Shown here: in pieces, positions 4,192-5,761 of the stretch
Position numbering within the stretch: the first letter of the stretch is position 1
Layout of the letters: each line of letters opens with the position of its first letter
Assembly: GCA_003354055.1 (NCBI GenBank)
Contig: PIVQ01000448.1
Location: 1-6,157 of the forward strand
Direction: 5' to 3'
From: Desulfobacteraceae bacterium
GTDB lineage: Bacteria; Desulfobacterota; Desulfobacteria; Desulfobacterales; Desulfobacteraceae
Length of the DNA stretch: 6,157 bases
Program-made: the position numbers and the translations under genes
The notes under the pieces: generated by a model
What the model was told of the DNA's origin: nothing
The model's database searches: none
Seen by the model: only the letters and a program-made list of their open reading frames with translations

Positions 4192-4328
4192 GGATTCCTC
4201 CTTGGAGTGTCTGCACAAATTTTGTTCGAATATAAAATGACGTGTGTCTAAATGGGTAGACCAGACGATAATATGAGTCAAGAAAAAAATCAGTGCATTT
4301 TATTAAAAGGAACCTTTGGAACAATCTC

Positions 4329-4357
4329 TTGACTTTCGAGTTAAGTTGTCTTAACAC
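4329..4357 (+). promoter_or_regulatory. promoter with MarR-type operator in front of marR
   Basis: A -35-like TTGACT (4329-4334) and a -10-like TAACAC (4352-4357) are 17 bases apart. The perfect dyad GTTAAG-TTGT-CTTAAC (4340-4355) fills the spacer and overlaps the -10. A repressor bound here would exclude RNA polymerase. The same arrangement recurs at 4843-4870. Autoregulation by the adjacent MarR protein is inferred. The site also lies in the shared 173-bp region with the divergent beta-barrel gene. Confidence 0.6.
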
Positions 4358-4361
4358 TATC

Positions 4362-4380
4362 GGTATGAATGACTCATACC
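4362..4380 (+). promoter_or_regulatory. hairpin over the marR start codon
   Basis: GGTATGA (4362-4368) and TCATACC (4374-4380) are a perfect 7-bp inverted repeat with a 5-base loop that includes ATG 4365. It could be a second operator half or an mRNA hairpin that affects start choice between ATG 4365 and ATG 4386. Confidence 0.35.
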
Positions 4381-4814
4381 ATGATATGGCCACCCGGATA
4401 TTTCGGTTTGTCAACAAGATCATTTTTTTGGAGAAAAAGAAGATCTTTACCCATGAGGGGGTGAAGCTCTTTCCGTCTGAGATCCATCTCATGCTCTGGC
4501 TTGAGAAGGGGGAAACTGGCAATGCCACCCGGATTGCTCAAGCCTTGGGTATTTCAAAAAGTGCCGTGTCCCAGACCCTGTCCCGGCTTACGAAAAAGAA
4601 TATCCTGATCAAAGAAAAAGATACCTTTAATAAAAATGAACTTTTGCTTTCGTTTACAGGGTTTGGCAGCCAGGCCCTGAACCGGTACAAGCAGACGCTT
4701 TTATCCAATATGGCAGGCCATGGTCAGTATCTTGAGTCCCTTTCCGATGATGAGAAGAAAGTGATTAAGCAGTTTATGACCCACATGGAAAATGTGATTG
4801 AAACCCTGGAGTAG
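4365..4814 (+). CDS. MarR-family transcriptional regulator
   Basis: The 149-residue protein has the MarR fold: N-terminal dimerisation helix, winged helix-turn-helix, C-terminal dimerisation helices. PSEIHLMLWLEKG (37-49) is the helix before the DNA-binding domain. NATRIAQALGISKSAVSQTL (53-72) is the helix-turn-helix and SRLTKKNILIKEKD plus NELLLSFTGFG (91-101) form the wing. LSDDEKKVIKQFMTHMENVI is the C-terminal helix. MarR proteins are usually dimeric repressors released by small molecules or thiol oxidation; the helix-turn-helix region holds no Cys, so ligand sensing cannot be decided. Neither ATG 4365 nor ATG 4386 (142 residues) has a Shine-Dalgarno sequence, and the transcript may be almost leaderless. 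Matching operators on both sides of the gene suggest that it controls itself and the merB-like selenoprotein gene. Confidence 0.88.
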   Translation: MNDSYHDMATRIFRFVNKIIFLEKKKIFTHEGVKLFPSEIHLMLWLEKGETGNATRIAQALGISKSAVSQTLSRLTKKNILIKEKDTFNKNELLLSFTGFGSQALNRYKQTLLSNMAGHGQYLESLSDDEKKVIKQFMTHMENVIETLE

Positions 4815-4877: not shown

Positions 4878-4983
4878 GTAAGGATTGGCTCCAAAATTAC
4901 TTGATCTTTTGTTTTCAAAATACCCAGTCTTTTAAGGGGTTTTGGAAATAATTTAGATCAAGTTATTTTGTAACGATTCCTAA
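4878..4983 (+). repeat. 106-bp palindromic repeat element, copy 2
   Basis: This copy is 104/106 identical to 2018-2123 and in direct orientation. It lies between the second MarR-type promoter and the ribosome site of the merB-like gene, so it would be transcribed as a long hairpin in that mRNA leader. The flanking sequences of the two copies are unrelated, which argues for separate insertions and against a large duplication. Confidence 0.85.
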
Positions 4984-4998
4984 TTTATATTTTTACAC

Positions 4999-5004
4999 AG
5001 GAGG
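4999..5004 (+). promoter_or_regulatory. ribosome binding site AGGAGG of the merB-like gene
   Basis: A full AGGAGG lies 7 bases before ATG 5012. It is one of the best ribosome sites in the window and fixes the start of the selenoprotein frame. Confidence 0.85.
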
Positions 5005-5011
5005 AAACCTC

Positions 5012-5761
5012 ATGGGAAACCGAATTATGCTTGGGCTGTGGCGCTATGTCATTAATCTGCCGCAGGTTTTGGCCGATGTCCAGATGAAAAAGACGGCAAA
5101 GAGATTTGAGAAGCGGTATGGAAAGATGCCTGACGAGGTTCGAAAAATTCATCATTTTGTTGTTAAAAACCTGGCAACAACTGGAAACCCCTTAGGCAGC
5201 AGATTTATCTCGGAGGAACTGGACATGGCAGAGGCACAGGTGGTCAAAGCCCTGGATTTCCTGGAGAAGAAACTGACCTATCTGTACAGAAATCAAGCCT
5301 GCGAGGTGACATGGGCCTATCCGGTTACCGTGGATAAAACCCCCCACAATATTGAATTCAGTACCGGGGAATCCCTGTATGCAGCCTGAGCGGCTGACGC
5401 ATTTGCCGCTCCCTTCGTGCAAGGGAAATTACGGGGCCGGGATCTTAGTGTCCGGGTCCGGACCGAATGTGCTTTCAGTCATCGGCCCATGACATTGGAG
5501 ATAGACAGCGATCTTAATTACAAAACAGAGGAGGATTGCCGGCCTGTGATTTTTGTACCGGATGTGGATCTGTTTAAGCTTGAGGATGACAGCATTATTG
5601 AGTCCTTTTGAACCCAATGTGTTTTCTTCTGGTCAGAAGAAGAGGCAAGGGCATATCGCAGACAGACCCACAGGATCCGGGGTGTCTATCTTACGGCAGA
5701 TCAGATGGTAGAGGGAACCCGATTGATTCAGACCGCGATTTTCGGATTTGACAAAGGGTGA
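5012..5761 (+). CDS. MerB-like (organomercurial lyase family) protein with two predicted selenocysteines
   Basis: The frame runs 249 codons to TGA 5759-5761 and contains two in-frame TGAs, at 5387 (residue 126) and 5609 (residue 200). Residues 41-92 form the N-terminal winged-helix region. AYPVTVDKTPHNIEF (102-116), then GESLYAA-U126-AAD129, match E. coli MerB LYAWC96ALD99. RVRTEC153AFSHRPMTL corresponds to the Cys117 region. ESF-U200-TQCVFFWSEEEARAY matches SFC159CHVHFF. Thus both TGAs replace the catalytic cysteines of MerB, and the catalytic Asp is kept. MerB cleaves the carbon-mercury bond of organomercurials by protonolysis; whether this protein does so is unproven. Some 49 residues follow U200, compared with about 53 after Cys159 in MerB, so the last TGA is probably the true stop. 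Downstream stem-loops fit bacterial SECIS elements. Conventional annotation would split it into 5012-5389 and 5417-5611. A twice-mutated pseudogene is the main alternative. Confidence 0.82.
5387..5426 (+). promoter_or_regulatory. candidate bacterial SECIS element 1 (UGA at residue 126)
   Basis: The stem TCCCTT/AAGGGA (5410-5415 with 5421-5426) carries a 5-base CGTGC loop starting 26 bases after the UGA, with G as second loop base. This fits the bacterial rule of a small loop 16-37 bases downstream with a G among its first two bases. A second stem, GCGGC/GCCGC (5390-5394 with 5405-5409), lies directly before it and may stack on it; it extends to GAGCGGC/GCCGCTC if the first stem opens. Confidence 0.6.
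5609..5643 (+). promoter_or_regulatory. candidate bacterial SECIS element 2 (UGA at residue 200)
   Basis: A 9-bp stem with one G-U pair (5622-5630 with 5635-5643) bears the tetraloop GGTC (5631-5634), starting 19 bases after the UGA. The GGUC loop is the one known in the E. coli fdhF SECIS, where the G and U contact SelB. The distance is also canonical. This is the stronger of the two candidates. Confidence 0.75.

Follow-up and report, generated by a model that had tools for sequence, protein, structure and literature searches.

A MerB-fold gene with two conserved in-frame TGA codons at the metal-ligand columns: a predicted double-selenocysteine protein in a Desulfobacteraceae bacterium

The gene at 5012–5761 and its relatives

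We analysed a 6,157-nucleotide (nt) stretch of DNA from a Desulfobacteraceae bacterium (contig PIVQ01000448.1 of assembly GCA_003354055.1), hereafter the window. Its forward strand carries, at positions 5012–5761, the gene of a MerB-family protein of 249 residues which, judged by its open reading frame (ORF), Pfam and fold comparison, is predicted to contain selenocysteine (Sec) at residues 126 and 200. The frame opens with ATG at 5012, 7 nt downstream of a Shine–Dalgarno sequence, AGGAGG, read directly at 4999–5004. It runs through TGA at codons 126 (5387–5389) and 200 (5609–5611) and closes with a final TGA at codon 250 (5759–5761); under the standard code it terminates after 125 residues. 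The protein consists of a winged-helix-like N-terminal part followed by the MerB catalytic domain (residues 107–234). Both internal TGAs precede hairpins that resemble a selenocysteine insertion sequence (SECIS), identified by a fold rule and by conservation. The first, CCCUU-CGUGC-AAGGG, lies at 5411–5425 with its loop starting at +26 nt from the UGA, and the second, UUCUUCU-GGUC-AGAAGAA, lies at 5624–5641 with its loop starting at +19 nt. A third Sec at codon 250 was considered and rejected because the relatives terminate nearby with mixed stop codons: the 81 genes compared, the window's included, end in TGA (42), TAG (21) or TAA (18), at a median of 49 codons past the second Sec codon. The third TGA of three relatives (L038, L075 and L085) likewise lies at the C-terminal end.

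The protein belongs to the MerB fold. With the TGAs read as Cys, the Pfam MerB model (PF03243) matches residues 107–234 with 53.2 bits (cut-off 27). Profile alignment to Escherichia coli MerB (1s6l; MerB residues numbered manually from the start positions given in the alignment) pairs codons 126, 129, 153, 200 and 201 with Cys96, Asp99, Cys117, Cys159 and Cys160, respectively. First, both ligand columns, in which E. coli MerB and MerB2 have Cys, hold TGA and thus a predicted Sec. Second, the catalytic acid is retained as Asp129 (GAC, 5396–5398), in a column where MerB2 has Ser. Third, Cys153 (TGT, 5468–5470) takes the Cys117 column. MerB (E. coli 1s6l and 3f0o; MerB2 5c17) shares with the window protein the fold, composed of a winged helix and a catalytic domain, and the four columns Cys96, Asp99, Cys117 and Cys159. 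The window protein differs in having TGA for both ligand Cys codons, an N-terminal extension and no Cys at residue 201; its identity to MerB is about 16–20%, and it scores far below the NCBIfam MerB cut-off.

To the extent that relatives were read, the two TGAs are invariant. A scan of genome contigs, in which the alignment was blind at both TGA columns, confirmed 117 relatives, and the best 80 were kept and read. All 80 have TGA in both columns at 39–62% identity, all have Asp in the column of Asp129 and Cys in that of Cys153, and most align over residues 1 to 246–249. Their record titles, all of metagenome-assembled genomes, name Deltaproteobacteria/Desulfobacterales, Chloroflexi, Acidobacteria, Nitrospirae, Zixiibacteriota and others. 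An earlier scan of genome contigs with the single protein as query confirmed no relative, nor did a scan of viral contigs. In six-frame profile searches of two genome samples, 11 strong members came from a set of 297 genomes and 2 from a set of 301, each with two TGAs. Nine of these 13 came from hosts already among the 80, and the four new ones (L085, L088, L092 and L093) share both TGAs and the first hairpin and have a hairpin with a GGUC loop after the second TGA. These results bear out most of the original prediction, which had proposed a strong ribosome site, a frame continuing through two TGAs, the coincidence of those TGAs with Cys96 and Cys159, and Asp129 as the counterpart of Asp99. 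It had also argued that such placement is not chance, with which the 80 of 80 agree. The homologs behave as it anticipated: close relatives have TGA at both columns, and wider MerB-like relatives have Cys or TGA by motif reading.

The hairpins are conserved with the codons that they follow. We applied our own version of a published bacterial SECIS (bSECIS) model (PMC13188914): a loop of 3–9 nt with G within its first two positions, 16–37 nt after the UGA, a stem of at least 4 bp and at most −7.5 kcal/mol, at any of five fold lengths. The rule is passed by 77 of the 81 first sites and 74 of the 81 second sites, including both in the window. The first loop is CGUGC in 72 of 81 genes and stands at +26 in 73; the second is GGUC in 69 and stands at +19 in 70. 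The stems CCCUU/AAGGG and UUCUUCU/AGAAGAA are nearly invariant, and two pairs of the second show C–G instead of U–A, in three and five genes. The UGAs at the ligand columns, their recurrence in all 80 relatives read and the conserved hairpins together point most likely to a two-selenocysteine enzyme. With good confidence, we take the UGAs on the MerB ligand columns to be most likely Sec codons, and predict from sequence comparison a MerB-family enzyme that cuts carbon–metal bonds.

Predicted chemistry and gene neighbourhood

The conservation of a separate coding-sequence hairpin for each UGA suggests that SelB and the selenocysteine tRNA (tRNA-Sec) would read these hairpins and insert Sec126 and Sec200. 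Standing where MerB has Cys96 and Cys159, the two selenolates would bind the metal of an alkyl-metal compound, for instance methylmercury. In MerB, proton donation by Asp99 releases the alkyl group as a hydrocarbon; if this mechanism carries over, Asp129 would donate the proton and the alkyl group would leave in the same form. Because selenolates carry a charge at neutral pH and have a higher affinity for mercury than thiolates, the Sec substitution plausibly makes metal capture or bond cleavage faster when substrate is very scarce. Since mercuric reductase (MerA) was not detected over its cut-off in the 49 host genomes searched, the freed metal would end up with sulfide, selenide or small thiols, bypassing that enzyme.

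Several observations weigh against a double-Sec organometal lyase. The protein scores 48.7 bits with NCBIfam MerB (cut-off 193) and 35.5 bits with NCBIfam SaoL (cut-off 140), and two relatives scanned likewise (L001 and L053) behave in the same way with these models and with Pfam MerB. Residue 201 is not the Cys found at position 160 of E. coli MerB, and no mer gene was found among the seven window neighbours scanned, so that mercury is a candidate substrate. Regarding the hairpins, four first sites and seven second sites fail the bSECIS rule, which is permissive when used alone, since 5301 of 16825 control codons in the same genes (31.5%) pass it. In a shuffle test, the 54 nt after the first TGA are no more stable than chance (z −0.07); those after the second give z −2.38. 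Regarding the decoding machinery, which was counted in the genomes of the relatives (79 hosts, that of L022 left aside), SelB passes its cut-off in 68 (40 of 49 and 28 of 30) and is missing over cut-off in 11. Nine of these 11 have SelA, one (G020) has tRNA-Sec and one (G030) has none of the three, so that 78 of the 79 have at least one marker. Of 23 hosts tested for tRNA-Sec, 16 pass the cut-off, but so do 5 of 14 control genomes, making it the weakest marker. In the sampled phyla, SelB is so widespread among background genomes (263 of 297 and 234 of 301) that its presence in the hosts discriminates little and shows consistency only. Selenocysteine machinery was rejected as proof for this reason.

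The identity of the protein as an organomercurial lyase, as first proposed, is suggested by the fold and active-site residues and not by the NCBIfam MerB score; the activity stays a prediction, and because of the fold and the retained acid an organometal lyase is the best guess for it. A possible but rather doubtful alternative is that the double-Sec protein is no organomercurial lyase and serves metal or metalloid sequestration, another organometal or organometalloid substrate, or redox chemistry. The missed MerB and SaoL cut-offs would fit this explanation, as would the Glu that replaces Asp99 in a related double-TGA clade and the regulators seen near the gene, which are of MarR or MerR type and, by reading, have no obvious mercury site. 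The same holds for the missing mer context. MerA and HgcA (methylmercury synthase) were searched in 49 of the 79 hosts (G001–G049), and a MerA over the cut-off was found in no host and in one of 14 controls; the family is thus not found in the company of MerA. On the other side, both ligand columns, the acid and the Cys117 column keep their pattern in all 80 relatives read, within a full MerB fold, and HgcA passes its cut-off in 25 of the 49 double-TGA hosts.

The HgcA co-occurrence is suggestive only. In the phylum sample, 6 of the 11 carriers have HgcA, compared with 77 of the 286 other genomes (one-sided Fisher p 0.054); leaving out the genome at the centre of the sample, itself a host, gives 5 of 10 (p 0.11). 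When all genomes with any A3 match are pooled, HgcA is in 10 of these 17 and in 73 of the remaining 280 (p 0.006); without the centre it is in 9 of 16 (p 0.013). None of these statistics is corrected for kinship.

The surroundings of the gene are mixed. A MarR/AdcR-like regulator, identified by profile matches and possibly a local regulator, is encoded just upstream on the same strand (4293–4814). Between it and the MerB-type gene, sequence comparison reveals a 106-nt element with 27-nt inverted ends (4878–4983; no strand assigned) that resembles a miniature inverted-repeat transposable element. A second copy, 98% identical, lies at 2018–2123, before a methylglyoxal synthase gene (2135–2572). 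Other window genes encode an RluA-type pseudouridine synthase, an outer-membrane beta-barrel protein, a methyltransferase and an SH3-domain protein. Across the 81 loci, there is no shared operon; the largest neighbour clusters comprise 10, 9, 9 and 8 loci, and the two of 9 have no fixed position. A MarR-like regulator stands upstream in 10 of the 81 loci, the window included, and a MerR-type regulator directly upstream in seven.

Hairpins and the reading of the TGA codons

The conserved hairpins could in principle mirror conserved peptides, PFVQG after the first TGA and FFWSEE after the second, and be no RNA signals. Both peptides are indeed strongly conserved, and the pass rate of the control codons shows how easily the rule alone is satisfied. 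However, the synonymous codons within the hairpins are frozen. In hairpin 1, Pro134 is CCC in 79 of 80 relatives, Phe135 TTC in 80 of 80, Val136 GTG in 80 of 80, Gln137 CAA in 72 of 79 and Gly138 GGG in 79 of 80. In hairpin 2, Phe205 is TTC in 80 of 80, Phe206 TTC in 77 of 77 and Glu209 GAA in 76 of 80, and the Ser208 codon is TCA in 71 and TCG in nine. Equally conserved residues elsewhere use several codons: the median codon entropy over 26 conserved four-fold columns, the hairpin ones included, is 1.67 of a maximum of 2 bits. In addition, the four members found by profile only repeat the first hairpin and the GGUC hairpin, whereas Cys relatives with the similar peptide FFSSEE have no GGUC loop. 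We therefore rejected the hairpins as echoes of the peptides, an explanation that we consider very unlikely. A search of Rfam gave no match within the window at gathering scores.

A reading of TGA as tryptophan (genetic code 4) in these organisms appears at first to be favoured by the protein database. A search there returned 30 homologs, of which 19 have W at column 126, 18 of these 19 having it at column 200 as well, and 11 end just before column 126. The database proteins with Trp at the TGA columns (P0002–P0019 and P0022) lie on short contigs. The W entries probably come from gene callers using table 4, and such entries hide selenoproteins. The genes themselves oppose a Trp reading. Trp101 is TGG in 80 of 80 relatives, and column 207 is TGG in 74, CGG in five, TGT in one and TGA in none. 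TGA also acts as a stop in the neighbourhood: the flanking ORFs of at least 200 amino acids (mechanical calls, n = 384) end in TGA (179), TAA (112) or TAG (93). Furthermore, the wider relatives have Cys and not Trp at the TGA columns, and the frozen hairpins follow the TGAs. Coding constraint is unchanged past each TGA, with third codon positions holding 54% of the differences before, 55% between and 54% after the TGAs (147 pairs; hairpin codons excluded from the between and after segments). The Trp columns that are never TGA, the TGA codons ending flanking frames and the constraint past the TGAs argue against both tryptophan and gene decay, and both were rejected; we regard the former as having almost no chance of being correct. 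Decay into a merB with two nonsense mutations, leaving as product only the 125-residue winged-helix piece that translation by the standard code would yield by stopping at codon 126, is next to inconceivable given the same two TGAs in all 80 relatives at 39–62% identity and the constraint just described.

The wider MerB-like family and its meaning

By motif reading, weaker matches show Cys/Cys, Cys/Sec or Sec/Sec at the two columns. In the order of host G002, a Pfam MerB search of 286 genomes found 44 genomes with a total of 52 matches, of which 42 have two TGAs, 3 have one and 7 have none; 30 of the 52 were read, and the counts for the other 22 were computed automatically. The 30 comprise 22 with U at both columns, one Cys/Sec gene with a CU motif and seven Cys/Cys genes. 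Nineteen of the 22 join L098 and L099 in a second double-TGA clade (L098, L099, L123, L125–L137, L139, L140 and L142–L144). The other three (L118, L138 and L141) form a third group with the Cys/Sec genes L110 and L111; these two and L096 have TGA in the Cys159 column only. At the second site, the sequence CGGTCGG is found in 20 of 23 Sec-type genes and GGUC is the best-fold loop in 15 of the 23, whereas the seven Cys genes have no GGUC loop.

Like the window family, the second clade has a TGA in each ligand column, the second TGA being followed by a hairpin of the GGUC type. Its two members scanned also match Pfam MerB and fall below the NCBIfam MerB and SaoL cut-offs. It differs in its separate position on the tree, where it is sister to the Cys-type genes L116, L119–L121 and L124, and in its motifs, with QUxFE (Glu in place of Asp99) at the first Sec, FRSEE after the second and conserved hairpins of its own. 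The tree was built, with the Sec columns blanked, from 66 rows: the window, 20 members from the set of 80 and 45 more distant relatives. It omits four weak matches, L108, L109, L112 and L114, of which L112 does not resemble MerB; L113, L096 and L103 are flagged as long branches of unsure placement. The 21 rows of the window's family form one clade (100/100). The double-Sec label needs four changes, the minimum forced by well-supported branches; the state either arose several times or was lost several times.

Another close described system is SaoL (NF040728), a MerB-like organometallic lyase predicted to be a selenoprotein, whose single Sec lies in a CU motif (PMC13188914, PMC9312934). The likeness, seen in relative L094 (Cys/TGA; SaoL 175.3 bits, above the cut-off of 140), lies in a MerB-like protein with TGA in the Cys159 column. 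L094 has Cys in the first column and another Cys directly before the Sec. In contrast, each of the two columns is TGA in the window protein, with Phe199 before the second, so that it departs from the single-Sec CU motif (PMC13188914). The table of a catalogue from 2026, which covers 119 families and subfamilies of prokaryotic selenoproteins, has SaoL, with a single Sec, as its sole MerB-like entry (PMC13188914). A literature search, mostly at the level of titles and abstracts and covering the relevant papers incompletely, returned no double-Sec MerB, and the window protein reaches the cut-off of no NCBIfam model of June 2026. Priority for a double-Sec MerB is thus likely but not certain. By its sequence, the protein has the MerB fold, is a predicted selenoprotein and falls outside both curated families, MerB and SaoL.

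All 30 database homologs are either cut before the first TGA (11) or have Trp there (19), and surveys of merB may therefore miss or misread the family. To our knowledge, the breakdown of methylmercury in anaerobes without MerA is an open question. Tentatively, and as a possibility that we place somewhat short of probable, the MerB superfamily in selenium-using anaerobes would repeatedly have become double-Sec, in at least three clades. It would then provide a selenium-based means, so far unrecognised, of breaking down methylmercury or other organometals in lineages that have no MerA and are often themselves methylmercury makers. The antagonism of mercury and selenium is usually discussed within toxicology; in the active site of this enzyme the two would be brought together by design. 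The family makes it testable how the replacement of both ligand sulfurs by selenium would affect the cleavage of the carbon–mercury bond.
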